Assembly (NCBI GenBank): GCA_013003715.1
Contig: JABDIN010000108.1
Coordinates: 124,001-188,000, forward strand
Direction of reading: 5' to 3'
Length of the DNA: 64,000 nucleotides
From: Desulfobacteraceae bacterium
GTDB taxonomy: Bacteria; Desulfobacterota; Desulfobacteria; Desulfobacterales; Desulfosarcinaceae
The notes under the pieces are model-generated. The model had not been told where the DNA came from. It did no database searches and was given only the letters and a program-made list of their open reading frames with translations. This document shows positions 12,683 to 54,209 of this stretch, piece after piece (the stretch's first letter is position 1; each line of letters begins with the position of its first letter). The position numbers were made by a program, and so were the translations under genes.

Positions 12683-15142
12683 CTATTGTACGATGATCCG
12701 TACCTCCGCCGATGTCTCCTTTCCAAATGGCGCCTGGACGCTGAAACGATGGGTTCCCGGGACCAGCGGCCACCGGATGCTGTACGGAAAATCCGCCAGT
12801 TGATAAGGCTTTCCGTTCACGAGCCACAGGACCTCAGGGATACGGGGCTCTACGCTGGCATGGAGCGCCAGGGCGTTCAGGGATTCAGGGGTCTCCGGAT
12901 TGATAAATACACGGTATCCGTTTTCCGGGGCGTCAATGGACAACCTCACCGGCACGAGACCTGTGAGGGTATGACCGGAATCGGTATAGGCGGTTTTCAC
13001 GGGCGCCGGAATTTCGGCGGTATCCATATCCAGGGCACTATAGCTTTCGGGCGGCATGGGGATTTGTTGGGACAACGCCCAGCGATGGAATCGGTCCGGC
13101 AGACGCGTATAATACCGGTTTTGTGTATATTCCGGCGGTGTCCACGGACCCGCCCGGAGATGGTTACGCACATCCACGGGCACCATGACCGTCGCAGCGG
13201 TCTCGTCGGGTGCCTGGCCCGGCGGAAACCATTCCGGGATCTTTTTTGGGGAATGTATCGTGGCGATCCTGCCGGTGAGGGCGCAGATCTCGCGGACCTT
13301 ATATCCTTCCGGATGTGGAAAAAACAGCTCGGTGCTGCGGCGTTCCGCACGCGGGTGCAAAGACATCAAAATATCCCTGGCCACCGTTGCGGCACTGCCG
13401 GCCCCGCCAAGCCGGTTCATGGGAAGCGCATCCGCCCTTCCCACCCAAACACCGACCATATATTGCCTCGAATAGGCCACCATCCAGGCGTCCCGGAAGT
13501 CCTGGGAGGTGCCTGTCTTCAGGGCCACGGGAAAGGGGTATTCCATGGTGCCCATGCGGGGGAAAGCCGGCAAACGCGCCATGGAATCGCTGAGAAACAG
13601 GGTGATCTGCCGGGCGACGCCGGCGGACATGACCCGTTTACCGGCGGATACGGCCGGAGAAGCCGTCCATTTGAGCGGCAGGAACATACCATCATTGGCC
13701 AGGGCCCCATAGGCCTGCACCAGTCTTTCAAGTGTTGTGGGCAGGCACCCGATGGAAATACACTGGCCGTAATGACCGGGTCCGTAACGTCCGTCATGGA
13801 TACCGAGATTTTCCAAAAAAAAGAAGGTCTCATCGATACCATTTTGCTTGGAGAGATTAACCGCCGGAATATTGCGGGAGTTGGCCAGGGCCACCCGCGG
13901 CAGCAGCGGGCCCAGGAAGAAATTGTCCGCATTGGCCACCCCGCTGGATACGCGCTCCAGATCTTCCAGAATGGTGGCCGGTGTAATGATTCCCCTTTCC
14001 AGTGCCAGCGCATAGACAAAGGGTTTCAACGCGCTGCCCGGTGACCGTTGGACACGGCAGAAATCCATTGCCCCGGCATTTCCGGACGTATAATTTGTCG
14101 AACCCAGCCAGGCCAACACCTCCATGGTATCGCGCTTGACGACCATGGCGGCGATGTGGGCGGCACCGGCATGTTGCCATGTCCGTATAAAGCGCCGGGC
14201 CACGGTCTGGACGACCTGTTGGACCTCCGGATCCAGTGTAGTGATGATGCACGGTTCCCGGCCGTCGGACAGGCGGCCTGTCCCCTGGATCAGCAGGGAT
14301 TCCAGATTCAGGATGGCGTGAAGCGTGTTAGCCGGCCGCCGGGATTTCGGCGGAACGGTCAGCTTGGAAATCTGGGAAACGGCCAGGTGATAATCCGGTT
14401 CGTTGATGACCTTTTCCTGAACCAAAAATCGGAGAATCCGCCCCCCCCGGTCAATGGCGCGCGCGCGGCCCGCGGCGGTGAAGGGGTTCATTCTGCCGGG
14501 TGCCTGGGGGATGGCCGACAAAAAGGCGATTTCCGCCCAACTCAGGTCCCCGGCGGGTTTATCCAGGTAAATTCTCGCCGCATGGGCCATGCCGTGGCTC
14601 TGGTTGCCGTAGGGAACCAGCCGAAGATAGTGTTGCAGAATCTTATCGCGGCCATGGCGGAAGGTCATGACCAGGGCGGTGACGGATTCAAGGATTTTGT
14701 TCAGATACGTTCTCCGTGCCGGGGACTGCATACGGGCGATCTGCATGGCAATGGTGGATGCCCCGGAAATACGCCGCCCGTGCCGCAGGTTCTGCCCCAA
14801 CGCCCGCCCCAACGCCACCACATCCACACCCGGATGGTACCGGAACCGGCGGTCCTCCAATGCCAGGGTGGCCGCCGCCACCCGCTCCGGCACCGGATCC
14901 AAAGGCCAGTACCCGTACCCGGACCTATCGCTGCCACCCACCTGTGCCAGAAATTGTCCATGCCGGTCCAGGAGAAGGAATGTGGGGGCGGGGGTGGTCA
15001 ACGCCGATCGGGACATGGCCGTGGCGAAGATGCCCAGGCCGGAAACCAGGATACCGGTCACCAGGATCACGGCGGCAAGGATCATGCCCGGACCCCGGAA
15101 CCATGGGGCCTTACGAACTATTTCAGAAAATCTCGGTACCAA
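12683..15142 (-). CDS. pbpC: Penicillin-binding protein 1C (bifunctional transglycosylase/transpeptidase)
   Basis: This inner-membrane peptidoglycan synthase has its domains in the periplasm. A membrane anchor spans about residues 19-42. The GT51 transglycosylase domain starts near 55, with the catalytic-glutamate motif ALEDRRF (E96) and GASTIAMQIARM. The transpeptidase follows, with SxxK at S370-K373 (SPGSALKP), an SRN triad (ALANSRNIPAV) and KTGTS at 542. The last 90 residues form the PBP1C-specific C-terminal beta domain. The length of 819 fits PBP1C. The reading frame opens with a TTG at 15142 that lacks a clear ribosome-binding site; an ATG at 15085 is possible but would cut into the anchor. 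It lies downstream of the alpha-2-macroglobulin gene, the same pairing as yfhM-pbpC in enterobacteria, where the two are thought to work together in envelope defence and repair. Confidence 0.93.
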   Translation of the reverse strand: MVPRFSEIVRKAPWFRGPGMILAAVILVTGILVSGLGIFATAMSRSALTTPAPTFLLLDRHGQFLAQVGGSDRSGYGYWPLDPVPERVAAATLALEDRRFRYHPGVDVVALGRALGQNLRHGRRISGASTIAMQIARMQSPARRTYLNKILESVTALVMTFRHGRDKILQHYLRLVPYGNQSHGMAHAARIYLDKPAGDLSWAEIAFLSAIPQAPGRMNPFTAAGRARAIDRGGRILRFLVQEKVINEPDYHLAVSQISKLTVPPKSRRPANTLHAILNLESLLIQGTGRLSDGREPCIITTLDPEVQQVVQTVARRFIRTWQHAGAAHIAAMVVKRDTMEVLAWLGSTNYTSGNAGAMDFCRVQRSPGSALKPFVYALALERGIITPATILEDLERVSSGVANADNFFLGPLLPRVALANSRNIPAVNLSKQNGIDETFFFLENLGIHDGRYGPGHYGQCISIGCLPTTLERLVQAYGALANDGMFLPLKWTASPAVSAGKRVMSAGVARQITLFLSDSMARLPAFPRMGTMEYPFPVALKTGTSQDFRDAWMVAYSRQYMVGVWVGRADALPMNRLGGAGSAATVARDILMSLHPRAERRSTELFFPHPEGYKVREICALTGRIATIHSPKKIPEWFPPGQAPDETAATVMVPVDVRNHLRAGPWTPPEYTQNRYYTRLPDRFHRWALSQQIPMPPESYSALDMDTAEIPAPVKTAYTDSGHTLTGLVPVRLSIDAPENGYRVFINPETPESLNALALHASVEPRIPEVLWLVNGKPYQLADFPYSIRWPLVPGTHRFSVQAPFGKETSAEVRIIVQ

Positions 15143-15253: not shown

Positions 15254-18200
15254 CTATTCTCCGGCCTTTGATTCGATCACCACTTTCACACCATTCCCCT
15301 GCCCGTTCACCGCCTGCTTGTACATCATCTCCGCATAAGCCGGCGGCTGGATGTATTGGCCGGGAATGACGGCCCGGGTCCGGAAATAAAAATGATAGAT
15401 TCCCTTGGGCAGCTGGTTATAATAAAAGGCCATCTGGTCGTCCATATAGGCGACATAGTCAGGTGCCCGGGTCAAAACGCCCTTGGGCCGGCTTTCCGCG
15501 GCGGCCGTGGCCAGGTTCGGGTTCATGGGCTCCATGCCCGCGGCCAGCGGCACCACCACGGCCACGTAATGCCGGTCTTCGGGATTGACCAGTTCAACAT
15601 GGGTCTCCACGATGTCTCCCACACCGAACCCCAGTTCCGAACCGGGCGTATCGATCTTCTCGCGGACAAAGGGTTTACCCTCATCCGCCACCCGGAGAAT
15701 TTCACTTCGCACGACAAACCCATTGGTCCGTGACGCCGCGTGGCTGCCGTCATCGCCGGGCAGGTACCGGATATCGCTGCGGACAGCCAGGCGGTCTTCA
15801 GGACGTGAATTGAGAAGTTTCAATGAAATTTCATGGGCGTCGGTGTAAATGGTTTGTTTGAGGTCGTTCCCGGATGACAGCTCGATCGTTCGTTTCGTGC
15901 CGCCCGTGAACTCCTCGATGGTTTTCGGCGTTCCATCGGCCGATTCCTGCCGATAATGGTCCGTCAACGCCAGAAGTGCGGCGGCATTGGCATTGGTGCT
16001 TCCCCAACCGTCTCCTTGTCCAAGCGTGACCAGGGCACGGGCCAGAAGGTCCTGATCCCGGGATCCGTTGTTCATCCGGGCGACGGCGCGGAGTACTTCG
16101 GAAATGGTTCGGGTCTCGGATGGGAGGACCAGGGCGTTGTAAATACTCACCGACTTTTGCAGCCCGCCGTAAATCTTCTCTCCCTGGTGGAGTCTGAACA
16201 CGAGCCCCTTGAAAAGCCGTTCCCGGAGCCCCTCCATGACATCCCCACCGGCTTCGCCGGACCGGGCCAGTGCCTGGGTGACATGGGCAAGGCTTTCCAG
16301 AGAGAGAAATTCCGATTTGCGCGAAAGTTCGGCGGCATATCCTTTGTCCAGCAGGCCGGCATCCGCCAGGGCGATGAGCGACCAGCAGCGGTCCGCGTAT
16401 GCCTCCCCAAAAATATGGTGGGCATAATCCGACCTGAGCGCCTGCTTAAGGCTGCGGCTCGCTTCCGCCATGAGCTGTTCGTTCACCGGATAACCGGCAT
16501 CCCCGGCTTCCACCATAAATTGAAGGGTCCAGGCGGTGAGGGATACGTACCCCGTGGATCCCGGCCAGTAGGCGGTCAGGCCGTTGGCATCCATCACCGA
16601 ATCCAGCCAGGCCAGGGTATCATTGACCACCTTGTCGATCCGTGCATCATTGTCATTGTCGGCCAACAATGTCCGGAATTTTTTTGCCGCCAGAAACGCC
16701 CGCGCGCGGCTGATGCGTTGTTCCGTGCACCCGTGGGGGTATTGGTAAAGATAATCCAGGCCGGCGGCCATCCTCACCAGGCCGGGTTGGCCGGATATGA
16801 GCAAAGACCGTTTGAGGCTGCCGGGCCGGACGGTTTCGGTCACCGCCGGGATGATCAAGGTTTCATCCCCGGCAAGCCCGGCCAATTTCTGTTCCCTCAC
16901 CGGACGGCGGTCCGGCCGGATGGGCAACTCCACGGAAAAGGCGTCCCGCGCTGCATCGGCGGTTCGCTCCACCCCCACAGTGATCCTGACGGTATCACGG
17001 TCGAGGCCGCCCCCGGGCGTTATCGTCTGCGGCAACACCCGGACCTCATATTCAATCCGGTTTGCGCGCCCGGGATCCCATTGAAAAGACTGTTGACCGG
17101 CGGTTTGCAGCTCAAGGCCCTCGGCACGCATCTCTGACTTGCCGTCACCGCCCTCACCTTCCACCACCCGGCCGATAGCAACGGCGGAAAACCGGTCACC
17201 GGGTCGCACGAAACGCGGGAGGGAGGGCTGAACGATGACCGGCAGGCGGACCGCCACTTCCCCTTTTCCGAACCCGAACCGGTCCGGGCCGCTCACCGCC
17301 TTGGCCCGAATTTTAAAGCGGGTCAGGTTATCCGGCAGTTGGACCTGAACCACGGCCGTTCCGGATCTGCCGATGATGATGGCCGGGTTGAAATAGGGTA
17401 CCGGTGAAAAATTCTTGCGGATGGTGACCCGGTCCAGGAGATCCGCGGGAGCGGCCATTCTGGCTTCCATCATGTCCGGTGCGTCGCCCCCGGGCTCCTC
17501 CATGAACGGCAAGTATCCCTGCACCTGATTCCGGACGTCCCGGATGGTGATCCGGGAATCCCGGTGCACGATGAAATCAGGCAACGGATCCAGACGCTGC
17601 TCCGTTCCGAGGGCCAGTGCGGCCTGATCCACCAACCACAGGGTGACTTCCCCGGCAATGGGCTTTTCATCGTTGTCCGTAAGATTGATGGTCACATCGA
17701 TTCGGTCACCCGGCTGGGCTTTATCCGGATGCGCCAGGTCGACCAGAACACGATGTTCATTGGTTTTCACCGTCACCCACACGCTGGCGGCCAGGGTGGC
17801 GGGTTTGCCAAGATCCGGCTGCACCGGTGACTCCGGGGCTTTACCGACACGGCCCCGCATGAGCAGGAAATGAACCGGTATGGCCGGAATAAATTCCCGA
17901 TCGATGTCGAGGGTAAAAACACCGGTTCCATTTTTGATATCCACCCATTCATATCGGTTCCGGTCTCCGGGAATCTCCACCACCGCTATGGCGCGGGCAT
18001 TCTGAAACGGACTTTCCAGGACCAGTTTGGCGGTCTCGCCGGGGGCATAGGATTTCTTTTCCGCAGTCACCGTAAACGTCTTGGCTGCGGGCTTTGACCA
18101 GGTCACCGGTTCTTTACCGCCGGCAAACAAGTCCACCGAGACCATCTGGGACCGGCCCAGCAGGTCGGACGATTCCACCTGGACGATATATACACCGGCG

Positions 18201-21079
18201 CCGGGAAGTGAAAATGACAGTTTTTCGACACCGGTTTTACTGGTGAAGGGCGTTTCGCTGATCTGTTCATCCACGGTCTCCGTGACATATTTCGCCACGC
18301 CCTGGGTAAAATCCCCGGCCTTGAGGTAGGAATGCCACTGACGCCGCAACAGGCGGACCACCACCTGCTGCCCGGCCAAAAGGTCGCCCCTGGCGTCCGC
18401 CACGATCACTTCGGGATATAGCAGATCCGCATTATCCTGGAACCGCGGCACCTTGAGGCCCAGTACAAACGGCGGCAGGGCCAGTACCTGATGGGTGTTG
18501 GAGACGGTTTGATCGTCAGCGCCGGTCACCGTGGACTCGATCACATAACGCCGGGGCTGGGCGGTGGGTTCAATCCCCGGATCCAATGTGATGACATCGC
18601 CGCCCTGAATGTCGGTGGTGCCCTGTACCTGCCGGGCAGGGGTGCTGCGGAATCGGGCGTAGCCGGAAAAACGGGCATCCGTGGAATAATAGAACCCTTC
18701 GCGCTTCTGGGGTGTCCAGGTATACGGGAACTGGGTCACCCGCCATTCCACGGGCTGTTCGGCAACCCGGCCACCCGCGTAGTAGGCGGCGGTCATTTGC
18801 ACTTTGAACGGTTCATCCAGCCGAACCCTGTCCGGCCCATGGAGCTGAACCTCGAATTTCGGCAACCGGTACGCCTCCTTGGAAAAGGAGACCGGGCCGT
18901 AGCTTATGCCCTTGTACTCCAGGTAGGCGTAAAATTCACCGGTGGGCAACTTCGGCTCGTCAAATTGATGATAGAAACTGCCGTATTCGGTGATGGTCAC
19001 CGGATATCGCCATTCCATGTCACCGGAACTCCGGACCACCAGAAACCCCTTGCCGGCCACCGGCGACAGTTTCGCCGCGCTGTACCGGCGGAAATATCCT
19101 TTAAGGTGCACGGGTTCATCGGGCCGGTACACCGGCCGCTCGGTAAACAGATGACAGATGAGCCGCTCGGTTTCCTCAACCGGTGCAAGTTCATGCAGGG
19201 TCCATTGGAGCCATGTTTCCTGCCGCGCCTCCCAATGGCTGCGGGCAAATGCCTCGGGGGGACGGGTGGGATCCAGAACCAGGTGATCCCCGCCTTTCTG
19301 CACCCTGATACGGCGGACGTTACGCTGCAACCGCCGTGCGTCATCATTGGTCAATGGCCAGGTGAAGATACCCGTATTGTCGGTATTGCCGTCTGCAAAA
19401 ACACTCCACCGGTTGCTCCCGCCCTTCCGCTCCGAGCCTTCCACCAGCACCCTGGCATTTTTCACCGGTCGACCGGTGGCGATGGAGGTCACCGCGAACT
19501 TCACAGCACGGGATTCCTCGAAGGTGGACAGGGAGAGATCCGTGGACTGCACCCGGATCCATTCTCTCGACGTAGACCCGTCCAGGATGCGAATCCCCAC
19601 TAGATAGGTGCCCGGAGCGTCCTTTCCGTCCAGCAACTGGAAATGGGGTGACAAATCCAGTCCGAACGAGGCGGTGGAGCCGGAACGCCGCAAGGGGATG
19701 GGAATCAATTGAGACAATGCCGGAGATCCCAGGGACTTGATCTGGCCGGACAAGGCATCGGCGGATATGTATCGATCGGGACGTGAAAAGGGTACGGGCT
19801 CTTCTCCCGGTGCAAACGGTTGTCGGTCCTCGTCAACAGCCACCGGGTGATTCGGGAACGGCCAGAACGACCGGTCCAGCGGATCCACTTTATAAATTCT
19901 CAGGTCAGCCCGCTGGAATCCCCGGCCCTTCAGGGGAACCATCTTGGGGCCGAATCGTTCCAGAATACCCTGGCTCGTTTTCCATTGTAAAAAACCTTCG
20001 GTGGCCGGGTAGTATAGAAACAGGCTTGCCGGAACGGTCATGGACAATGGCCTGCCGGCCCTATCCGTGATGTCGGCGGGGAAGAGCGACACTTGGTAAA
20101 GTGTATCCGCAACAAAATCCCCCTGCACGTATAGTACGTTGGATTCAAGGGTATACCTGAGATTTTCCACAACCGGGCTGAAACGGACCAGGTTGCGCAG
20201 GCCGGTGGGTGACGGGTCGGTCACCGGTGATGAGAACCAGATTTCCACGGTGCGGTTCTCCGCCGGGCATTCCAGGGCTTGTTCCCGGGAATAATCGGTG
20301 CGTTGGGTTGGAATGGGATATGTCTGCCCGCCACATCCGCAATGGGTGATGTGAAACGGTCTTGCCGTGGAAAAGGTAATGGTATGGAAGGCTTCAGCCC
20401 CATCATCGGCCAGGGAGAGCTTTAAATTCACCAGCACCTTGGTGCCGGGACCGATGCGCTCCTTCAGGGCGAGGACATAACCCGCCGGATCATTCCGGTT
20501 GCGCCGTTCCATGACCTTCACGGTGAAATGACGGTGGTCCAGAACCACGGCATCCGTGTCGTCCCCCCCGGGCAGGGGTCTGAGCCGGATGCTGACCATC
20601 CGGGACAGGACACCCGGATCTATGGGCTCCGGGAAACTCAGGGTGATGGCATCCACCGGGGGCAACCCGGTTTCAACGTTCGTGGGGATCGTATTTGTGG
20701 GGACCGACATGAGCGTAAAAAGCCGATGCTCCCGGTTCCCCACGGTCCAGACGAACCCGGCCATGGCGGGCCATGGTTCGGCCGGCCTGAACTGGAGCGT
20801 CCGGGCATTCAGCCATGTATAAGCCCCGGGATGCGTCGGGTCAAGGTCTACATACTTGTCCGGAAAATCCTCGGCACCGCCCTGTTTCGGTCCGGTATCC
20901 TGATCGAAAAACAGCGTAACCGGATCCCACCGCCGCAAAAAAGCATCGGGCACGATATGCGCTCCCGGCGGCCGGTGAAGGCCGGGGGGAGACGGCTCGG
21001 CGCCGGCAGCCAAGGGACAGAGGAGTAGAAGGCTCAATATGCAGCAGATTATTAATTTATCGAATATTCTGGACGCCAT
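15254..21079 (-). CDS. Bacterial alpha-2-macroglobulin family protein (thioester type)
   Basis: This is a periplasmic or membrane-associated protease trap of about 1941 residues. A signal peptide occupies residues 1-27 or so (FDKLIICCILSLLLLCPLAAGA); there is no lipobox cysteine at the cut, unlike the E. coli lipoprotein form. Macroglobulin-type (MG) beta domains fill the first half, including the segment near HLFTERPVYRPDEPVHLKGY. The thioester motif GCTEQ has its cysteine at residue 1451 inside YQYPHGCTEQRISRARAFLAA, and a helical alpha/alpha-toroid complement-like domain and receptor-like C-terminal domain follow. I chose the ATG at 21079 because GGAG lies six bases upstream; an upstream TTG at 21091 overlaps that site. 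It is flanked upstream by a giant secreted protein and downstream by pbpC, apparently in one transcript. Confidence 0.92.
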   Translation of the reverse strand: MASRIFDKLIICCILSLLLLCPLAAGAEPSPPGLHRPPGAHIVPDAFLRRWDPVTLFFDQDTGPKQGGAEDFPDKYVDLDPTHPGAYTWLNARTLQFRPAEPWPAMAGFVWTVGNREHRLFTLMSVPTNTIPTNVETGLPPVDAITLSFPEPIDPGVLSRMVSIRLRPLPGGDDTDAVVLDHRHFTVKVMERRNRNDPAGYVLALKERIGPGTKVLVNLKLSLADDGAEAFHTITFSTARPFHITHCGCGGQTYPIPTQRTDYSREQALECPAENRTVEIWFSSPVTDPSPTGLRNLVRFSPVVENLRYTLESNVLYVQGDFVADTLYQVSLFPADITDRAGRPLSMTVPASLFLYYPATEGFLQWKTSQGILERFGPKMVPLKGRGFQRADLRIYKVDPLDRSFWPFPNHPVAVDEDRQPFAPGEEPVPFSRPDRYISADALSGQIKSLGSPALSQLIPIPLRRSGSTASFGLDLSPHFQLLDGKDAPGTYLVGIRILDGSTSREWIRVQSTDLSLSTFEESRAVKFAVTSIATGRPVKNARVLVEGSERKGGSNRWSVFADGNTDNTGIFTWPLTNDDARRLQRNVRRIRVQKGGDHLVLDPTRPPEAFARSHWEARQETWLQWTLHELAPVEETERLICHLFTERPVYRPDEPVHLKGYFRRYSAAKLSPVAGKGFLVVRSSGDMEWRYPVTITEYGSFYHQFDEPKLPTGEFYAYLEYKGISYGPVSFSKEAYRLPKFEVQLHGPDRVRLDEPFKVQMTAAYYAGGRVAEQPVEWRVTQFPYTWTPQKREGFYYSTDARFSGYARFRSTPARQVQGTTDIQGGDVITLDPGIEPTAQPRRYVIESTVTGADDQTVSNTHQVLALPPFVLGLKVPRFQDNADLLYPEVIVADARGDLLAGQQVVVRLLRRQWHSYLKAGDFTQGVAKYVTETVDEQISETPFTSKTGVEKLSFSLPGAGVYIVQVESSDLLGRSQMVSVDLFAGGKEPVTWSKPAAKTFTVTAEKKSYAPGETAKLVLESPFQNARAIAVVEIPGDRNRYEWVDIKNGTGVFTLDIDREFIPAIPVHFLLMRGRVGKAPESPVQPDLGKPATLAASVWVTVKTNEHRVLVDLAHPDKAQPGDRIDVTINLTDNDEKPIAGEVTLWLVDQAALALGTEQRLDPLPDFIVHRDSRITIRDVRNQVQGYLPFMEEPGGDAPDMMEARMAAPADLLDRVTIRKNFSPVPYFNPAIIIGRSGTAVVQVQLPDNLTRFKIRAKAVSGPDRFGFGKGEVAVRLPVIVQPSLPRFVRPGDRFSAVAIGRVVEGEGGDGKSEMRAEGLELQTAGQQSFQWDPGRANRIEYEVRVLPQTITPGGGLDRDTVRITVGVERTADAARDAFSVELPIRPDRRPVREQKLAGLAGDETLIIPAVTETVRPGSLKRSLLISGQPGLVRMAAGLDYLYQYPHGCTEQRISRARAFLAAKKFRTLLADNDNDARIDKVVNDTLAWLDSVMDANGLTAYWPGSTGYVSLTAWTLQFMVEAGDAGYPVNEQLMAEASRSLKQALRSDYAHHIFGEAYADRCWSLIALADAGLLDKGYAAELSRKSEFLSLESLAHVTQALARSGEAGGDVMEGLRERLFKGLVFRLHQGEKIYGGLQKSVSIYNALVLPSETRTISEVLRAVARMNNGSRDQDLLARALVTLGQGDGWGSTNANAAALLALTDHYRQESADGTPKTIEEFTGGTKRTIELSSGNDLKQTIYTDAHEISLKLLNSRPEDRLAVRSDIRYLPGDDGSHAASRTNGFVVRSEILRVADEGKPFVREKIDTPGSELGFGVGDIVETHVELVNPEDRHYVAVVVPLAAGMEPMNPNLATAAAESRPKGVLTRAPDYVAYMDDQMAFYYNQLPKGIYHFYFRTRAVIPGQYIQPPAYAEMMYKQAVNGQGNGVKVVIESKAGE

Positions 21080-21165: not shown

Positions 21166-24100
21166 TTAAAATTCATCTTCCCCTTTTTCCATCTCCAGGT
21201 ATCGCCGAATCACCTCTTCAGGCGGCCCCTTGTCCGGCGGCTGGATGCCCACCACGGCGGGTTGAACCTGTACGGCACGGGCATCCTTCGGCACACTGAC
21301 CTCAAGGACGTATGTGCCCGCCGGGAGATCGTGTATCTGAACCAGTCCCTGTCCCAGTACCCGGCCCTCATTGTCCATCAGCCGGCTCACCGCCTGGTCC
21401 GAATCCCCTCTGACGCCGACCCCCACCCGCCCCGGGGTGGTCACGGCAAAGGAGAAGAGTCGGTTTTCTCCGGGTGCAAGCCTGACCATCGGCCCGAGCC
21501 CCTCTTTCAAGTCGCGGATGGCCGTGAACGAATGGCGGGCGATTCCGGATAGCGCCTGTGTGCCGAGGGCCACGAGGGTGACCTGGTTTTCACCCGCCGG
21601 CAGATAGTGATGCAGGTCCACACCATCGGCATGGATATCCGCCGATGACGGGCCGTCTGCCGATCCGACCCGCACCAGGGCCGGTATGTCCGTCCCCAGT
21701 GACAGCATGGTCGGGGTGTCCCGGTTGTATCTCAAGGTCATGGTTTTTCCCGTAAGGGCTGTTCGGTTTCCGGCACGGACGGTCACGGTATTCCGGGCCG
21801 CCGGTACCTGCCACGGATTTGTTTTCCGGCTTTCCAGCCACACGGCGGTTACCCCCCGGCCATGATGCAATAGCAACCGTCCGCTGCCCGGCAACCGGAA
21901 TTGCCTGCCGGATTGCAGACGGCCGTCATGGTCAAGGAAAATCCCACGGCTTTCCGGTCCGCGGACAAAAAGATGAAATCCTTCACCATCGTTGTGTGCC
22001 GGGAGATCGACCTTCAGCTCGAAAACGCCCCCATGGGAGAAGTATCGGGTAAACACGGCATCGGCGGCCACCATCGGCAATGCCGCGGTGTCCGGCGGCA
22101 ACAGGGTGGCTTCGGCCATGGCCGTGGAAGAACCCGTGTGGTAAAAGGCCACCTGATCGGCCGTACGGGTGTATGTGGCCACCATATCCCGATCTCCCGA
22201 CCATCCCAGTCCGGTTTGACGGCCGTCGCCGAGAAACCGTACTGCGGTCCGGGCCGGGACCACCAGCTTGATTCGTTTCACACCCTCGGGCAGATCATAT
22301 GTCCGTGAATGGCCGGGCAGCAACTCAATATCGTTGACACCCCAAGTCAGGCCGCCCGAATGGCCGGGGATAAATTCATGAACCGCCAATGCCACGGAAA
22401 GGCCTGCCGCTGAGCCGCCGGCATCCCAGATATGAACCGCACCTGGGCCCTTTCCCGCCATAAGGGCCGCCGCGGTATGCTCGCCGCCCCCTGAATTGTC
22501 CATATCCACCGGGGACGGCTTGTTGGTCACGGCAGCCACACCGGGATGTCCGGACCGTGAGTCGGCCGTGATCAACAGGTGGCTATCCCCCCGGGACCGG
22601 GTCACATTCATCCGGGCCCTTCGCTGCGGCGGTAGGGAAAACTGAACATCCCCGGCCGCTGACAGGCGAACACGTCTCAATTCCATGGACTCACCGGGGG
22701 GACGATCTGAATTGATGAGCAGCCAGATCCGGTCCTGATCCGCGGTGATGATATCGTTTACCGGTTCGAATGCACGCAGCGCACCGGTGGAAACCAGAGT
22801 GCGCTCCGCATTCGCGTCGTTGAATGCAAGCAGGCCCGGACCGGACAGATTCAGGGCGGCCAGGTGCAGATCCGGCCGCGAGGGATGAACGTTCACCCAA
22901 TTAAGACGCTGGTTTCCGGTATCGGCTTCGGTACCGGGTGTCAGGTCGACGGTCAGCACATGGATCGCCATTTCCGCCGGCCGCTGGTCGACGGTCCAGA
23001 CCTGAAGCCGCAGGCGGGTGTCCGCCTCCCGGACCGGCACGGCAATGGCCGGTGATGTTCCGGAGAGGCGTTGCAGGGTCGACCATCCTGTTTCCCCCTG
23101 TATCTCGATGGACATACCCATGGCATGATCGGATTTTCCGGTGGCCACGAGGACGGTGCCGGGGGTCACACCGGTGATGGGGAAGGTATGCACCCTTATA
23201 TCCGCAACGGAAAAGTCGGCCGGCGGTTCAAGGGGCGGCTCCATGATTTCCCCGGACTGGACCATGGATATCCGGCATTGGGCACCGGTAGCGCCCACAG
23301 GGGCAACCCGCAACCGGTAAAATCCCGGTTCCAGGCGGCGCGCGAGGTAAAAATTCCAATCCTCGGAGCGGTCATCACTGCCGTCGATCAGATTACCGGC
23401 GCCATCATACAACATGGCCCTGACGTCCTGGCTGCCGTAGGAGGAGATTTCCACCAGCCCGGATCGGCTCACGGACAAGGGGATGTCGGCAGGGGCGTTC
23501 ACCTGGCGGGAATCACCGGAGACGAGCTGCAGCGTGGAAATGGCGACGACATAATCCAGCCGGTTGTTGGGGCGGACACTCTTTGCCCTGAGGCAGTATT
23601 CGCCGGCATCGAGGACCGCCGACCAGGTTTTCCCCGGTAGTATCTGCATATCCGGCGACACGGTCTGCGATGCCGGATCAACGAGGTCACCGCTCATCAG
23701 GGCACCGAGCGCAATACGTACATCCGCCGGGGCCGGCAGGGTGAAACACCATTGGTCCGGGACCCGTTCCCCGCCGGGCTCCGGCTCCATCCATCGATGC
23801 CCAACGGATGTGTTCACATCGATATGATGCGGGCCATGGCCGCTGAACGCCATGGGCTCCGGAACCTTCTCGAACAGAGTCACCGCACGGGCGGTCACCG
23901 GTTGCGGCAATATCACCAGACGATACACCCCCGGGGAAAAACGGCGGTCGAACAAGGCTCTTTGCCCGGGTATGGTCAGGGGCCATCCCCCGGCATCCTC
24001 GAGCCGCGCTGTATAGGCCCGGTTCAGCCCCAGGGTTTCCACCCGGTATCGTCCGGTTTCCGTTATCTGGAATTCGTATTGGATGCCCTCTCCGGCCGGC

Positions 24101-26391
24101 AGGCTTTTGCGGACCGGGATACCGGATATCAGGCGGCCGCCGTTGCGCAGAGGGGTGCGGGAGAGCATTACCCCCAGATGTCCCCGGGTTTGGCCCCGGG
24201 GTTTCACCGACAACTGATAATCCCCCTGCCGCAGATATTGTTGAATCAAAAAATTCCGCCCCACGCCGTTGGCTGCCTGCCGGTCGAAGGATACCATGGT
24301 TCGCGTTCTCAGGTTGCCTTCGGTTTCCAGCAGACCGGTGGATGCCAGCCGGTACAGGGAGTCGGATGCCACCTTGACATTAAAGGTCGCTGTCTGCCGC
24401 CGTTTCAGATCCAGGTAGATGGGCGAGGTATCGTCCAGGGTCCGGAAATCCGGTATGGCCGCCAATTCCCGTTCGGGCAGCGGGGGCAGGGAAACGCTCT
24501 CCTTCAACCGCTCGGGCAGGAATTCCAGGTTGTATTGAAAGGCCTTGTCACCGTCATTGGGAATGCGGATACGGTATTGTCCGGCAGTCAGGTGATGAGT
24601 GGCTTTTAAAGCACTGCGGTCCACCGCCAGTTCAATTAGTTGCCCGCTACCGGCCACGGCGCGGACATCTCCGGGCTCATCGACGCGGATCGGGATGTCC
24701 AGAGACCTGCCCGGTTCATGGGTAACGGGAAGCGCATCCTGCAAATCAATGGGCAGCGGCCGGAGCACCAAACCGGTTTTCACACCGGGCCGTTGATTCA
24801 GGTACAAGGTGTACCGGGAGCTGTTGTCGAGCATCCGACTGCCATACCGGTTGCCATACAACGGAAAGGCATATTCGGGCGCACCGATAGCCCGTACGGG
24901 ATCCAGGCGGACCTCAAGAATGCCTTTCCCCTGGCTTGCCGGAGACATGGTGAGTTTATAAATACCGGTGTCCAGATCCCAGGTATATCCGGCATTCCGA
25001 AACGCCGGCGGCTCATAATTTTTCGGCCGTCTTATAAAAAACGGCTCGATCCGGTACCGGGCATGGGCCCCGGTTTCCGAGAGGGTATATCCGCCGGCAT
25101 CCCTGACGTCGATAAAAAGGGTGAGCTGGCTCAACAAGTTGAATTTACCCCGCCACCCCGTCCGTTCGTCCAGGCGGACCAGTTGCCTGTCGACCAACCG
25201 CTCCGTCTGATGCCGGGGTGTTTCCGTCAACAGCGAGGTCACATCCACGGTGTCCCGCACATCACCGGCAGTGATGGTGCTGATCCAATGGGCCCCGTTT
25301 CCCTTGATCCGGTGCTCCCGGGCGGCATTGAAATGCTGCAGAACGTATGGTTTACCGGTTTCACGCTGAATGGTCACCTGATTGTATCCATTGTCGGCAC
25401 GGGCCGAGGAGAGTTCCGCCACGGGCGGCACGGATTTTTTGCTGATACCGGCACTGGGGCCGGACACGGCAAAAGGGCGGTTTGGATTGAAGGGCGATAC
25501 CTGAATCCGGGCGTTTTCGGCCTCGGGCAGTTCGAGACGGTAAAAGGTTGCCGATTTGGGTACAAGGAACCGGTCCAGACCGAATGGACCTGCTTCATAG
25601 TGCCCCCGGCCCGCCGTGGGGAGAGTGGGAATACCATACCGGATATGGAACGGAAACCGGTCGTCATCCCCGGTCCAGTCCAGGGGGATACCCCCGTAGG
25701 CGGTGACCCGGTACAACCCGGCATTGAGACGCGCCGTCAGCCGGCATACACGAAGGAACCTTCCGGGTGCCGGTTCCAACATATTTTTTTCCGGAACGGC
25801 ATCCACCAGCCAGGAGCCGTCTTTCCAGAATCGCAAATCCGTGAGACTTCGTCCGGCCGCCTCAATGGCCACAACCTCGTCTTTTGGTATTCGCAACCAG
25901 AAAGACCGCTGTTCCACATCTTTCAGCTCGGATCGAACCGTCTTATACGCCACCAGCAACGGTGGTGAGGGCATATTCCGTTCAGTGAAGGGACGAACCG
26001 ACAGGGTTGCCGTCCCTTCTCCTTTTTCATGGGAGGTGATGATCAATTTGTATTGGCCATGCTCGAGAAAGGTATCGATCCGCCCGTTCGAAATCCCGGC
26101 TTCGCCTGACCGATCCCCTGGACCGGCCATGCGGTCGATCAATTGCAGCGCCGATCCTTCCGGGCCTTGGACACTCAGGGCATACCGGCCGAAATCAGGG
26201 ATGGTGAGAACCGCTTCCTGCCTGCCAGTGGCGGGAAGCGTTGTTTTGGACAGCACAAGCGCCGCGCCTTCCGCCGGGAAAGCAACCGCCAGGATGACAA
26301 TCATCGCGGCATTCGCCATGATAAAACAGGGAGACAAGGCATCACGGGCTGAGACAAGCAAAACTCCGAACCAGCGGCGATTGTATTTCAT
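21166..26391 (-). CDS. Giant secreted beta-repeat protein, partner of alpha-2-macroglobulin
   Basis: I do not recognise a named family for this protein of about 1741 residues. The start at 26391 is chosen because AAGGAG lies 11 bases upstream; longer in-frame starts have no ribosome-binding site. The N-terminus (MKYNRRWFG...) has a basic stretch and a hydrophobic segment (MIVILAVAFPAEGAA), a likely export signal. The mature part is made of repeated beta units, each ending in a strand of the form pG-x-Y-x-L/I: HGQYKLIITS, AGQYRIRIPN, QGDYQLSVKP, PGVYRLVILP, AGEYCLRAKS, PGFYRLRVAP and AGTYVLEVSV. This is the pattern of bacterial pre-peptidase C-terminal (PPC)-like domains. No catalytic motif is visible. 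It is followed 86 bp later by the alpha-2-macroglobulin gene and then pbpC, suggesting a role in envelope defence or protease capture. Confidence 0.75.
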   Translation of the reverse strand: MKYNRRWFGVLLVSARDALSPCFIMANAAMIVILAVAFPAEGAALVLSKTTLPATGRQEAVLTIPDFGRYALSVQGPEGSALQLIDRMAGPGDRSGEAGISNGRIDTFLEHGQYKLIITSHEKGEGTATLSVRPFTERNMPSPPLLVAYKTVRSELKDVEQRSFWLRIPKDEVVAIEAAGRSLTDLRFWKDGSWLVDAVPEKNMLEPAPGRFLRVCRLTARLNAGLYRVTAYGGIPLDWTGDDDRFPFHIRYGIPTLPTAGRGHYEAGPFGLDRFLVPKSATFYRLELPEAENARIQVSPFNPNRPFAVSGPSAGISKKSVPPVAELSSARADNGYNQVTIQRETGKPYVLQHFNAAREHRIKGNGAHWISTITAGDVRDTVDVTSLLTETPRHQTERLVDRQLVRLDERTGWRGKFNLLSQLTLFIDVRDAGGYTLSETGAHARYRIEPFFIRRPKNYEPPAFRNAGYTWDLDTGIYKLTMSPASQGKGILEVRLDPVRAIGAPEYAFPLYGNRYGSRMLDNSSRYTLYLNQRPGVKTGLVLRPLPIDLQDALPVTHEPGRSLDIPIRVDEPGDVRAVAGSGQLIELAVDRSALKATHHLTAGQYRIRIPNDGDKAFQYNLEFLPERLKESVSLPPLPERELAAIPDFRTLDDTSPIYLDLKRRQTATFNVKVASDSLYRLASTGLLETEGNLRTRTMVSFDRQAANGVGRNFLIQQYLRQGDYQLSVKPRGQTRGHLGVMLSRTPLRNGGRLISGIPVRKSLPAGEGIQYEFQITETGRYRVETLGLNRAYTARLEDAGGWPLTIPGQRALFDRRFSPGVYRLVILPQPVTARAVTLFEKVPEPMAFSGHGPHHIDVNTSVGHRWMEPEPGGERVPDQWCFTLPAPADVRIALGALMSGDLVDPASQTVSPDMQILPGKTWSAVLDAGEYCLRAKSVRPNNRLDYVVAISTLQLVSGDSRQVNAPADIPLSVSRSGLVEISSYGSQDVRAMLYDGAGNLIDGSDDRSEDWNFYLARRLEPGFYRLRVAPVGATGAQCRISMVQSGEIMEPPLEPPADFSVADIRVHTFPITGVTPGTVLVATGKSDHAMGMSIEIQGETGWSTLQRLSGTSPAIAVPVREADTRLRLQVWTVDQRPAEMAIHVLTVDLTPGTEADTGNQRLNWVNVHPSRPDLHLAALNLSGPGLLAFNDANAERTLVSTGALRAFEPVNDIITADQDRIWLLINSDRPPGESMELRRVRLSAAGDVQFSLPPQRRARMNVTRSRGDSHLLITADSRSGHPGVAAVTNKPSPVDMDNSGGGEHTAAALMAGKGPGAVHIWDAGGSAAGLSVALAVHEFIPGHSGGLTWGVNDIELLPGHSRTYDLPEGVKRIKLVVPARTAVRFLGDGRQTGLGWSGDRDMVATYTRTADQVAFYHTGSSTAMAEATLLPPDTAALPMVAADAVFTRYFSHGGVFELKVDLPAHNDGEGFHLFVRGPESRGIFLDHDGRLQSGRQFRLPGSGRLLLHHGRGVTAVWLESRKTNPWQVPAARNTVTVRAGNRTALTGKTMTLRYNRDTPTMLSLGTDIPALVRVGSADGPSSADIHADGVDLHHYLPAGENQVTLVALGTQALSGIARHSFTAIRDLKEGLGPMVRLAPGENRLFSFAVTTPGRVGVGVRGDSDQAVSRLMDNEGRVLGQGLVQIHDLPAGTYVLEVSVPKDARAVQVQPAVVGIQPPDKGPPEEVIRRYLEMEKGEDEF

Positions 26392-26580: not shown

Positions 26581-28086
26581 TTAATCATCCATTCGGCGGG
26601 GTCCGGTGATGACGCCGGCATTGCATTTTTTGGCGATGTTGGCCAGCATGCCTTTGAATACGTAATCATGGAACGGGGATACGCTGTACCAGTAAACCAA
26701 TCCGGCCAATCCCTTGGCAAGGAACCTGGCATTCATGGTCAACTCGGTATGCGCCCCGTCCCGGGATTCGACGATGAATTCAAGGATAGCTTCTCCGGGT
26801 AGCCTCATTTCCGCGAGCAGTACCAGTCGTCGGTGTATACGGACATCCAGTACCCGCCAGAAATCAAGGACATCACCAATTTGAATGCGACGGGGATGAC
26901 GCCGGCCGCGATCCAGACCCACACCACCCACCAGTTTGTCCATAAACCCCCTCAGCCACCAGAGCCGGCCGGCAAAATACCAGCCGGTGTCTCCACCGAT
27001 ATTTTTTATCAGCTCCCAGACTTGATCCGCGGATGTCCTGATCCGGATATGATAGGCGCAGGACATGATGGCGCCCCCCGAATAGGGTTCATCGCCTTTT
27101 TCAACCCATTCGGGGCGGTGCACCATGCCGGCATCGGTGTAGTAGGTGTCCACGATCTGTTGGGAAATCTTTTCAAGGGCGCGTTGAATCGCCTGGTCGC
27201 AGCTCATAAGGCGCTGGGGGACGATGTCTCTGATGCGGCTGTCACGGCAGATCACCTCATGCCCCAATCCCCGGATCAGGGGACTCACCAGATGACGGGG
27301 AACAGGCGTGATCAGGCCGACGAGATAGGAAACCAGTCCCAGGCCGAAGAAGGGTAAAATGATGGTTCGCCTTCTCCCTAACCCGGCGTGTTTGCTGTAA
27401 AGATCTATCAGATCCTTGTAAGTGAGGATATCGGGTCCGCCGATGTCATAGGTCTGCCCGATGGTCTCATCCCGGGCCAGGCATGCCACAAGGTAACCCA
27501 GGACATCCCGGATACAGATCGGTTGGCACCGGGTGAACAAGGTCTTTGGTGCGACGATTACCGGGAGCCGGTCCACCACATAACGGATAATCTCGAATGA
27601 GGCGCTGCCGGATCCTAAAATGACAGCCGCCTGCAAAATGGTAACCGGAACCGGTCCTTTCCTGAGAATCCGGCCGACTTCGTACCGGGACGCGAGGTGT
27701 CTGCTGTCCGAAACACCTTCTCCACCGATACCCCCCAGATAAATGATACGCTCCAGGCCGGCGGCACTGGCGGCACGGGCCATATTGTGAGCGGCCCGGC
27801 GGTCTGTGGCAACGAACTTCCGCCCGCTGCTCATTGAATGTACGAGGTAGTAAGCTGCCCGACATCCGTCGGCTGCCTGCCGCAGGGATACCGGATCCAA
27901 AACGTTCCCCCGGACGCCTTCAAAACGGTGATGCGCTTCCGGGAAGCGCGCCCGGAGTTTATCCAGGGATCTTGCCATGGCCCGCACGTGGCAGCCCTTC
28001 CGCAACAACAGCTTGACCAGGCGCCCGCCCACGTACCCGGTGGCTCCGATCACGAGCACTGGTTTCCATTGCCGTCGTGTTCCCAT
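26581..28086 (-). CDS. SDR-type NAD(P)-binding protein with C-terminal DUF2867 domain
   Basis: The first 300 residues form an atypical short-chain dehydrogenase/NmrA-like Rossmann domain. The dinucleotide loop GATGYVGGRLVKLL is near residue 14, AYYLVHSM at about 80, and IIYLGGIGGEG at about 115. From about residue 345 (YHIRIRTSADQVWELIKNIGGDTGWYFAG) a DUF2867 domain runs to the end, a fold related to START/SRPBCC ligand-binding proteins. This fusion is known in many bacteria as a DUF2867-containing SDR of unproven activity; it may act on a quinone, lipid or aromatic substrate. The length of 501 is normal for the fusion. It lies 49 bp after the nitroreductase gene and is probably co-transcribed with it. 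Confidence 0.82.
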   Translation of the reverse strand: MGTRRQWKPVLVIGATGYVGGRLVKLLLRKGCHVRAMARSLDKLRARFPEAHHRFEGVRGNVLDPVSLRQAADGCRAAYYLVHSMSSGRKFVATDRRAAHNMARAASAAGLERIIYLGGIGGEGVSDSRHLASRYEVGRILRKGPVPVTILQAAVILGSGSASFEIIRYVVDRLPVIVAPKTLFTRCQPICIRDVLGYLVACLARDETIGQTYDIGGPDILTYKDLIDLYSKHAGLGRRRTIILPFFGLGLVSYLVGLITPVPRHLVSPLIRGLGHEVICRDSRIRDIVPQRLMSCDQAIQRALEKISQQIVDTYYTDAGMVHRPEWVEKGDEPYSGGAIMSCAYHIRIRTSADQVWELIKNIGGDTGWYFAGRLWWLRGFMDKLVGGVGLDRGRRHPRRIQIGDVLDFWRVLDVRIHRRLVLLAEMRLPGEAILEFIVESRDGAHTELTMNARFLAKGLAGLVYWYSVSPFHDYVFKGMLANIAKKCNAGVITGPRRMDD

Positions 28087-51437: not shown

Positions 51438-54209
51438 TTATGCCCGGGTAATCCGGCCATACATCCGCACCAGCCGGTCCGGCAGATCCCGGACATCGTT
51501 GATGACATAATGGTGCACGTTACCGTAGAGATCATCGAGCCGTGGGTCCGCCCCCATGTTGACGGTCAATGCCTTTGTCTGGACGTGACCGGCCCTCATT
51601 TCGGATATGGCCCTGCGGGTGTCCTCGATGGCGTAGGTCCGTTTATATCCCTCGTCGTTGGGGAAACCATCACCAATGATAATCAGCAGCCTCACCCGCG
51701 CGGGGACCTTTTGCAATACGCTGCCGGCATGGCGTATGGCCGCTCCCATACGTGTACTTCTCTGTGGTGCCAGGGCCTTTATTCGATCCTTCACCCCGTC
51801 GTTCAAAGATTCCTGAAAATCTTTTATTCGATAATAATCCACCCCCGACCGTCCACTGCCGGAAAATCCGGCCACGGCAAACGCATCGCCCACGACATCC
51901 AGTGCCTCACAGAACAAAACGATGGCTTCTTTTTGCACATCCATAACAGTGGTCACGGAGGTCCGCGTACCCGGCACGGCATTGGCGGTGGATCGTGAGA
52001 GATCCACCAGGAGCAGCACGGCAAGGTCACGCGTTTGCTTAAGGCGTTTGACGTATATCCGCTCCGACGGTGTTCGTCCGCTTTTTCGATCGACAGCGAA
52101 ATCCAGAAGGGCGCGGTAATCAAACTCATCCCCCTCCATCCAGCGCCGCAGGATCACGAGTTTCTCGGGTCTGAGCATTTCAAACGCATGACGGATATGG
52201 CCGGTCAATTCAGGATACCGACGGAGTGTCCGGCCATAAAAATCATTGGATGAGCTGGTGATCCGCCGATCGCGCACTCTGACATGATCGAGAAGATAAT
52301 CCGCCATCCGGTAGTCCCATTCGGCATAATGAAAAACGGATCCGGCGGCAGCACCCGGCGCGGAGGCCCCCGCCGCTGTTGTGGACGTCAGCGTTGAAAT
52401 CTGCACCATGGCGGGGTCGAGCTGAACCGCCGGCGCCACTTTTTCCGGCATAGCCCCACGGCGTTCGGCCAATTCCCGGACATCTTCAGCGGTGAGGCTC
52501 TCGTTGCGCCGGTACAGGTGCTCTTTCAGATCAGATTGAAATACACGGATACCGTGTCGGTTTAAAATGGACCGAATCCGGCCGGCCAACCGTTCAATGC
52601 CGCCAAGGGTTCGGGCATATAGTTCCGGGCGCAACCTTAGCCCGAAAGGGGTTTCCATAGATGTGTATACGGCGGCGAATGCGGATGCCGGGTCACATTC
52701 TTTGAACAATTCCGCAACTTCGGAGTAGAACCGCCACACCAGGCCCCCGCAGTCATTTATGGTGCTGTCGATGCTGATCGTCTCCGCAAACCGGAGCGCA
52801 ACACGATCAATAACGGCAATGGTCGCGGGTGTCAGATGACCGTCATGCACCACCGGCATGCCCAGGGCGATTTCCTTGTACAACCGGAACAGCGGATGCC
52901 GGTCCGCGCCATTGGCGGACAGCGACCGGCATTCATCCCCAAGGTATGCATACCCCTTTTCAGCCAATCCGGGATAATTGCTCACGAATTGCCGCCGGAT
53001 GCGCCCATGCTCGAATATGTTCAACAGATCCGCGGCCAGCAGGGGCAGGGGGAATAACCGGTAAAATCCATCGATGTCCGTTGCGGCTTCCGGCTCATCG
53101 GCCGGTCGCTGCGGCACATGTCCGGCATCCGGCCGGATCGCTATGAGCTTTTCCATATCAAAACCAAAGGAGCCGAATTCGTAAAATCCAGATTCTATTT
53201 TGGCCAGTAATTTGTAAAGAAATTTATTTTTTGCCGGATTGTCATAGCGGCTGATTTCGTCCGGGAGATAGATGAACGCTCCATCCGAGCACACCCAGGG
53301 CGGTGACGCTGCAGCGGTGTCCAGACCGCGCCCCAGGGTGGATATGGGTTTAACACCAATGGCCATCCCGGTCCGGGCCTTCACGTAATCGTCCAACTGG
53401 GACCGGACTTGATCCAGCGCCACCGTTACCTGCAATTGAGAGAACCAATCCTGCCCCAATTGGGATTCCAGGGATAAAAAAGCCGCGCCTGATTTGGGAT
53501 GGACGCAGTATTTTTCGAGGCCGTAGTCGATGAAACGGCCCAATGCATCCTCCGCCAACAATGCCAGTCCGGCGGCCATACCGTTCAGAAACGGTTCAAT
53601 CAATCGCTCGTCGGCCGTCACTGTCCTGATCAAGACGCGGGTTTGCCAGACCCGGTGCCGGGCGGAAAAGCCGGCTACCGCGTTGGGAAGCGATCGGGCC
53701 AGCCGTGAACATCGGTTATAGGACAGGTCCCGGCTGAAAGTGATGGACAGCAGTTCCAGAAACGCTTTCGCCGCCGCCACTTCGTTATCGTGCAGCAGCC
53801 GTGTCAACCGCTCCAGGGGTGTCTTCATCGCGTACACGCCCTTTGCATGCAGGATATCCACGACGTCCTTAAAGCGAGTTGCCAATGCCGGGTCATCCGC
53901 CAGCAGTACCGGCGGCAGGTGAGAGGCCATCAGAATTCCGTAAGTGGCACCGATACGACCGGCATGTTCGATGGTTTCAGCATATGCCGCCATCCGTGGA
54001 TTTCCGGTTCTGCCGGCGAGTCCGATCATTCCGTCAGCCACCAGAAATCCGAAATCCGTATTGATTGTCAGGGCATCGATGACCGTGTCGGCGAGAAGTG
54101 CGGCGGCGGCCGGACCAAGATCCAGGCCCAACCGGTTCAGCTTGTCCACCACATGGCCGGCGACTTTCGGATCTGCGATTCGCAGTTTTTCAAGGGGGGA
54201 AGCCGGCAT
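51438..54209 (-). CDS. NorD/CbbO-like protein with C-terminal VWA domain
   Basis: This large protein of 923 residues has a long N-terminal helical region without recognised motifs and a von Willebrand A domain in the last 200 residues. The metal-dependent adhesion motif is DLSRSTAN (AVLLLVDLSRSTANAVPG), and IIGDGFPND is the second metal-site strand. Pairs of a VWA protein and a MoxR-like ATPase (next gene) act as chaperones that insert cofactors or remodel enzymes such as nitric oxide reductase (NorQ/NorD) or Rubisco (CbbQ/CbbO). No such target lies in this window. The start codon follows an 85-bp gap after the ATPase gene. Confidence 0.8.
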   Translation of the reverse strand: MPASPLEKLRIADPKVAGHVVDKLNRLGLDLGPAAAALLADTVIDALTINTDFGFLVADGMIGLAGRTGNPRMAAYAETIEHAGRIGATYGILMASHLPPVLLADDPALATRFKDVVDILHAKGVYAMKTPLERLTRLLHDNEVAAAKAFLELLSITFSRDLSYNRCSRLARSLPNAVAGFSARHRVWQTRVLIRTVTADERLIEPFLNGMAAGLALLAEDALGRFIDYGLEKYCVHPKSGAAFLSLESQLGQDWFSQLQVTVALDQVRSQLDDYVKARTGMAIGVKPISTLGRGLDTAAASPPWVCSDGAFIYLPDEISRYDNPAKNKFLYKLLAKIESGFYEFGSFGFDMEKLIAIRPDAGHVPQRPADEPEAATDIDGFYRLFPLPLLAADLLNIFEHGRIRRQFVSNYPGLAEKGYAYLGDECRSLSANGADRHPLFRLYKEIALGMPVVHDGHLTPATIAVIDRVALRFAETISIDSTINDCGGLVWRFYSEVAELFKECDPASAFAAVYTSMETPFGLRLRPELYARTLGGIERLAGRIRSILNRHGIRVFQSDLKEHLYRRNESLTAEDVRELAERRGAMPEKVAPAVQLDPAMVQISTLTSTTAAGASAPGAAAGSVFHYAEWDYRMADYLLDHVRVRDRRITSSSNDFYGRTLRRYPELTGHIRHAFEMLRPEKLVILRRWMEGDEFDYRALLDFAVDRKSGRTPSERIYVKRLKQTRDLAVLLLVDLSRSTANAVPGTRTSVTTVMDVQKEAIVLFCEALDVVGDAFAVAGFSGSGRSGVDYYRIKDFQESLNDGVKDRIKALAPQRSTRMGAAIRHAGSVLQKVPARVRLLIIIGDGFPNDEGYKRTYAIEDTRRAISEMRAGHVQTKALTVNMGADPRLDDLYGNVHHYVINDVRDLPDRLVRMYGRITRA

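Follow-up and report, generated by a model that had tools for sequence, protein, structure and literature searches.

A giant exported PPC-like repeat protein is the constant first gene of an alpha-2-macroglobulin and PBP1C cassette

Introduction

Can the pair formed by a bacterial alpha-2-macroglobulin (A2M) and PBP1C have a third partner? The question is raised by a locus of a Desulfobacteraceae bacterium in which a giant exported protein is encoded directly ahead of the two. The pair has been proposed to act when the outer membrane is breached, with the A2M trapping proteases and PBP1C repairing the wall (PMC5764988, PMC3328433), and both the role of bacterial macroglobulins and their adjacency to PBP1C are still argued mostly from gene neighbourhood. 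The locus was analysed within a stretch of 64,000 nucleotides, referred to below as the window. The source bacterium is probably sulfate-reducing, because its genome holds a dsrA gene well over its cut-off and the window a multi-haem cytochrome gene; an rRNA search of the genome found no 16S.

The three genes of the locus

The preliminary description of this DNA had reported a 1741-residue exported protein of no recognised family, and the gene for it is real: it starts with an ATG at 26391 behind AAGGAG, its stop ends at 21166, and the product begins with a hydrophobic export region. The observation stands with one correction, namely that the coding strand is the minus strand. The absence of a recognised family was borne out as well, with a Pfam search of the whole protein returning no family at E <= 1, NCBIfam giving two sub-threshold matches and none over cut-off, and PHROG and PADLOC searches matching no family. 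Pfam found neither a recognised catalytic domain nor the LprI domain (PF07007) anywhere in the protein, and judged by hydrophobicity there is no membrane anchor beyond the signal region, the best hydrophobic stretch averaging 1.2. Two other identities were rejected. The giant is not a decayed A2M, as no macroglobulin domain matches across the whole protein and its structure matches are led by PPC rather than macroglobulin folds, and it was discarded as a phage-defence protein on the lack of a PADLOC match.

Table 1. Features of the cassette, in positions of the window.
Feature	Position	Strand	Remarks
Giant exported repeat protein	21166..26391	minus	1741 aa; signal region 1-43, PPC-like units, variable middle, conserved last unit, VVG-x2-PP-x2-GPPE tail
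Unit D1	25978..26262	minus	residues 44-138; contains conserved stretch LQLIDRMAGPGDRSGEAGISNGRID
Unit D9	23254..23523	minus	residues 957-1046; modelled as 8-stranded beta-sandwich
Variable middle D10-D15	21514..23247	minus	residues 1049-1626; 14-36% identity to homologues
Unit D16	21220..21510	minus	residues 1628-1724
A2M, cassette clade	15254..21079	minus	ATG 21079 behind TGGAGAAAAAC
PBP1C-type enzyme	12683..15142	minus	start uncertain: TTG 15142 or ATG 15085

The second gene encodes a thioester A2M, as had been described, with the motif CTEQ at residue 1455 of the open reading frame read from 21091. Its signal peptide lacks a lipobox, and PF00207, the bait-region domain PF07703 and PF17973 (bMG10) all score over cut-off. 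The product of the third gene has transglycosylase (PF00912), transpeptidase (PF00905) and BiPBP_C (PF06832) domains over cut-off and the transpeptidase motifs SALK and KTGT; NCBIfam TIGR02073 is its best family by far, at 443.6 bits against an equivalog cut-off of 494, and the enzyme is therefore called PBP1C-type. The order giant, A2M, PBP1C-type on one strand agrees with the earlier account, with gaps of 86 nt and about 111 nt and no terminator-like sites between the three genes on the coding strand; promoter and terminator scans performed no better than shuffles.

Some neighbouring features were also recorded. Upstream of the cassette, a gene at 26581-28086 (minus strand) encodes an NmrA/epimerase-type domain fused to DUF2867 and was not seen beside the other cassettes. 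At 51438-54209 (minus strand) lies a gene for a 923-residue protein in which Pfam recognises a VWA domain at the C-terminus and nothing else. Elsewhere in the same genome (G000:C115, L051 8341-12669) there is a second A2M of 1443 aa, with no pbpC or giant gene adjoining.

Repeat units and fold of the giant protein

Motifs of the pG-x-Y type were found eight times by pattern and once more by eye near residues 475-482, which makes the previously claimed seven or more units plausible by motif, while the stricter profile-profile test gives five. In leave-one-out profiles, a test that is somewhat biased because the segments were picked by motif, six of the nine units scored above 997 or more of 1000 shuffled proteins, and units d2, d4 and d8 were not convincing. 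Profile-profile comparison with homologues found D4, D6, D7, D9 and D16 to match mutually (66-91% in 7 of 10 pairs) and D1, D2 and D8 to be weak, and the repeat nature of D10-D15 could not be demonstrated by it. Between homologues, D1-D4, D6-D9 and D16 are conserved and D10-D15 are not, the latter showing 14-29% identity within the phylum against 41-57% for most of the flanking units (D5 excepted). In an alignment of seven homologues D16 is the most conserved unit, with 28% invariant columns, and D1 has 26%.

Using the nine repeats as an alignment, D9 was modelled with a pLDDT of 86 and has a PPC fold, with an rmsd of 1.4-1.9 and a Z of about 12 to structures of the PPC family, ColG and ColH. 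Among solved structures D9 comes closest to the protease Tk-SP of Thermococcus, in its C-terminal domain, and to the PPC and collagen-binding domains of clostridial and Bacillus collagenases; Tk-SP, ColG/ColH and the Bacillus PPC domains reach Z 11-12 over 83-88 residues, against 9-11 for other folds. PliG, a lysozyme inhibitor, showed a likeness as well (Z 10.2), which was set aside as a functional clue, being tied with GOLD domains and other folds. The structural check suggested in the preliminary description succeeded for D9 and failed for residues 1040-1741, where AlphaFold run without an alignment gave a pLDDT of 37 and was not used.

The PPC likeness claimed earlier is supported by the fold of D9 and by bridging homologues, and stops short of formal membership. 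The window protein as a whole is unmatched at the gathering cut-off of PPC (PF04151), one fragment around residues 973-1029 gives E 0.1, and its homologues give E 5e-4 to 1.5e-3, all under cut-off. The top match of the repeat profile outside its own genome among 60 relatives (G039; E 1.6e-4, weak) and the top partial match of the giant in the phylum (G663; E 8.5e-4, weak) are both PPC domains that pass the Pfam cut-off, and the bridging matches include an astacin-type protease. Since the modelled fold and the bridging homologues lead to accepted PPC domains, the units are PPC-like; since the window protein falls under the cut-off, it is not filed as a formal PF04151 member.

Distribution and exclusive linkage

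No homologue of the giant was found among 60 relatives, nor in samples of roughly 389 genomes apiece from the class and the order. Searches of viral contigs and phages gave no match, and short-peptide-pattern scans of genome contigs, a method that reaches close relatives only, matched neither giant nor A2M. Full-length homologues were found at nine places outside the window. Two are in two small other classes of the phylum (G430 and G448; 37% identity over the alignment), and seven are on Rhizobium megaplasmids (28-31% identity over 90-97%). In nine of nine, an A2M gene and then pbpC directly follow the giant on the same strand and in the same order, which upholds the earlier proposal of an undescribed third member tied to the pair; homologues lying away from A2M and pbpC, which that proposal named as evidence against itself, were looked for and none was found in the samples searched. 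A gap of 5-7 nt separates the giant from the A2M gene in three annotated loci of Rhizobium, and the outer flanks differ between plasmids, so that the conserved block consists of exactly three genes.

The linkage extends to the kind of A2M concerned. A search of 395 genomes sampled from the phylum, made with both proteins, found 69 that hold an A2M at E <= 1e-20. In three of these its identity is 49% or more along the full length, and they are exactly the three that have the giant; the next A2M stands at 28%. Within a plasmid collection 191 records match the A2M. Identity is about 41% over 97% in seven of them and 26% over half in the next, and these seven plasmids and no others carry the giant. 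In trees built by quick search with SH-aLRT support only, the nine intact A2Ms of the cassettes group in a single clade (support 100), as do the nine cassette PbpCs (support 100). The three-gene linkage and the shared ancestry of each of the three proteins are thus observed, and the link of giant, A2M and PbpC is exclusive within the samples searched. About four independent lineages lie behind it, because the Rhizobium copies are closely related, and chance probabilities that treat each record singly are therefore too favourable, although the adjacency is the same throughout. A2M-pbpC pairs without the giant are common in relatives and make up most pairs. The cassette is common to distantly related bacteria, with the giant as its constant first gene, and the known A2M-PBP1C defence pair therefore has a version with a third part. 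The cassette may have been transferred between phyla.

One plasmid record, of Rhizobium sp. C104 (L078, 15458-29433), carries all three cassette genes in pieces, through either joint decay or sequencing errors, although this split cassette has flanks similar to those found around the intact cassette of R. acidisoli.

Variation among the cassettes

The PbpC catalytic motifs are intact in all cassettes, and the cassette A2Ms are without a lipobox, unlike several other A2Ms examined. The thioester site varies. It reads C-T-E-Q in the window, G430 and G448, and S-T-E-Q or P-T-E-Q in six intact Rhizobium A2Ms (L072, L073, L074, L077, L092 and L093), which lack the thioester cysteine and keep TEQ. 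This replacement of cysteine by serine or proline means that in Rhizobium the thioester has been lost while the giant has been retained.

The Rhizobium giants differ at their N-terminus. All those in which it was read have a signal peptide and an LprI domain there; PF07007 is over cut-off in the two that were tested with Pfam, and the rest of them visibly share this sequence. The fusion supports a role for the giant on the peptidoglycan side. The domain does not prove lysozyme inhibition, because in Salmonella the LprI protein ScwA plays no part in resistance to lysozyme and affects the levels of wall hydrolases instead (PMC7933661).

Two observations concern A2Ms outside the cassettes. Several of the next-most-similar A2Ms of the phylum (L082, L084, L085, L086 and L089) are lipoprotein-like at the N-terminus, with a lipobox-like cysteine, and no adjoining pbpC was found for them. 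On a Meiothermus taiwanensis plasmid (L091, 8669-13876), a DUF1175 gene directly precedes a CxEQ A2M without pbpC.

A possible function, and its alternatives

Among the roles put forward earlier for the giant, namely scaffold, bait or presenter of substrates, we prefer that of a partner that scaffolds or stabilises the A2M, on the model of the Mag system (PMC5764988). There, an A2M without a lipobox, MagD, is kept and stabilised by proteins of its own operon: partners encoded alongside it bind MagD 1:1 and raise its thermal stability, and MagB tethers it to the inner membrane and so prevents its loss (PMC5764988). This precedent, together with the missing lipobox of the cassette A2Ms, leads us to consider the giant an obligate periplasmic partner or scaffold of its own A2M and the third part of an envelope-defence module, a reading to which we assign a probability of about 0.5. 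Exported and built mostly as a chain of PPC-like beta-sandwich units, the giant would stabilise its A2M and keep it close to the peptidoglycan and to the PBP1C anchored in the membrane, a holding function suggested by the lack of a lipid anchor on the A2M itself. When an outside protease or wall-degrading enzyme breached the outer membrane, the A2M would trap the protease and PBP1C would repair the wall; in Rhizobium the scaffold would also bear an LprI-type domain, serving the peptidoglycan side of the defence. Periplasmic location, physical binding, the stabilising role and the response to attack are what we infer. Against the partner reading count the absence of a membrane anchor, owing to which the giant cannot by itself fix the A2M to the membrane, the many A2M-pbpC pairs that do without it, and the small number of lineages. 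A fuller version, in which a self-contained, horizontally spread three-part periplasmic immune module combines a giant PPC array that senses or scaffolds and chooses captures, a dedicated A2M whose thioester is optional and a dedicated wall-repair enzyme, with anti-lysozyme parts as possible fusions, is tentative and, as a whole, rather unlikely.

The fold of the units could instead point to polymers. The giant might be a binding array for peptidoglycan, capsule, plant or animal matrix or other envelope or extracellular polymers, marking a place without binding the A2M at all; its nearest folds at Z about 12 are C-terminal domains of secreted proteases and collagen-binding domains of collagenases, and an astacin-type protease is among the bridging matches. 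The giant has no recognised catalytic domain for such an array to steer, however, and a protein partner accounts better for its being linked exclusively to one A2M clade, so that we hold this possible and rather unlikely. The variable middle invites a different proposal, in which the giant serves as a sensor of proteases or as a decoy for them: its fast-changing residues 1049-1626 would be cut by invaders, and the cleavage or release would then trigger or feed the A2M. The far greater variability of D10-D15 than of most flanking units fits this, and so do the Rhizobium A2Ms, whose missing thioester cysteine means that trapping must use non-covalent means; but the A2M retains its own bait-region domain PF07703, and rapid change may equally reflect a weakly constrained spacer, which leaves the proposal unlikely.

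Large repetitive beta-sandwich proteins that are exported are often adhesins, and the giant might accordingly be an adhesin or surface-layer type protein sharing a transcript with the defence pair for regulation only. That it stays strictly linked to a single A2M clade and a single PbpC clade across great distances, with the flanks changing, argues instead for a joint function and makes this quite improbable. Chance neighbourhood, with an orphan gene having come to lie beside a2m-pbpC in this one genome, would suit the 60 relatives and the genomes of class and order that lack a homologue; it is refuted by the full-length homologues of two other classes and of Rhizobium, which have the same gene order, and we give it practically no weight.

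The giant is a real third member of the macroglobulin-PBP1C module, undescribed in the literature found and exclusive in the samples searched, where it never occurs without one particular A2M and PbpC, be it in a sulfate reducer or in nodule-derived rhizobia. It offers a direct experimental handle on the stability, place and trapping of the A2M, and the Rhizobium copies, with the thioester cysteine lost and LprI present, constitute a natural experiment on the need for covalent capture.

Comparison with known systems

No description of a PPC-repeat partner of A2M-PBP1C was found in the literature searched, though an earlier mention, for instance in the founding survey of bacterial A2Ms, may exist. 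Members of the PPC family (PF04151), ColG and ColH resemble the giant in the fold of the modelled D9, and its bridging homologues are true PPC domains; in the window, by contrast, such units are strung into a long chain with no protease attached, and the protein stays under the Pfam cut-off. The LprI or lysozyme-inhibitor-type proteins (PF07007) share a domain with the N-terminus of the Rhizobium giants, a domain that is absent from the window giant and the two other members of the phylum.

The type I A2M-PBP1C systems (E. coli YfhM-PbpC, or ECAM, and Salmonella Sa-A2M) likewise place a CxEQ A2M beside a PBP1C gene, with the same proposed joint role, but have no described giant third gene. The window A2M has the domains and the CxEQ motif of a type I A2M; the cassette A2Ms differ in having no lipobox, their identity with other A2Ms is about 20-29%, and the Rhizobium members lack the thioester cysteine. 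The Mag complex of Pseudomonas aeruginosa (MagABCDEF, with the type II A2M MagD) is alike in having an A2M without a lipobox. It differs in its operon of six genes, with small partners of 26-60 kDa and no PBP1C, whereas no similarity of the giant to any known full-length family was detected and the window A2M retains its thioester. The A2M-PBP1C defence pair was already known, and the giant third part is, as far as the literature found shows, new.
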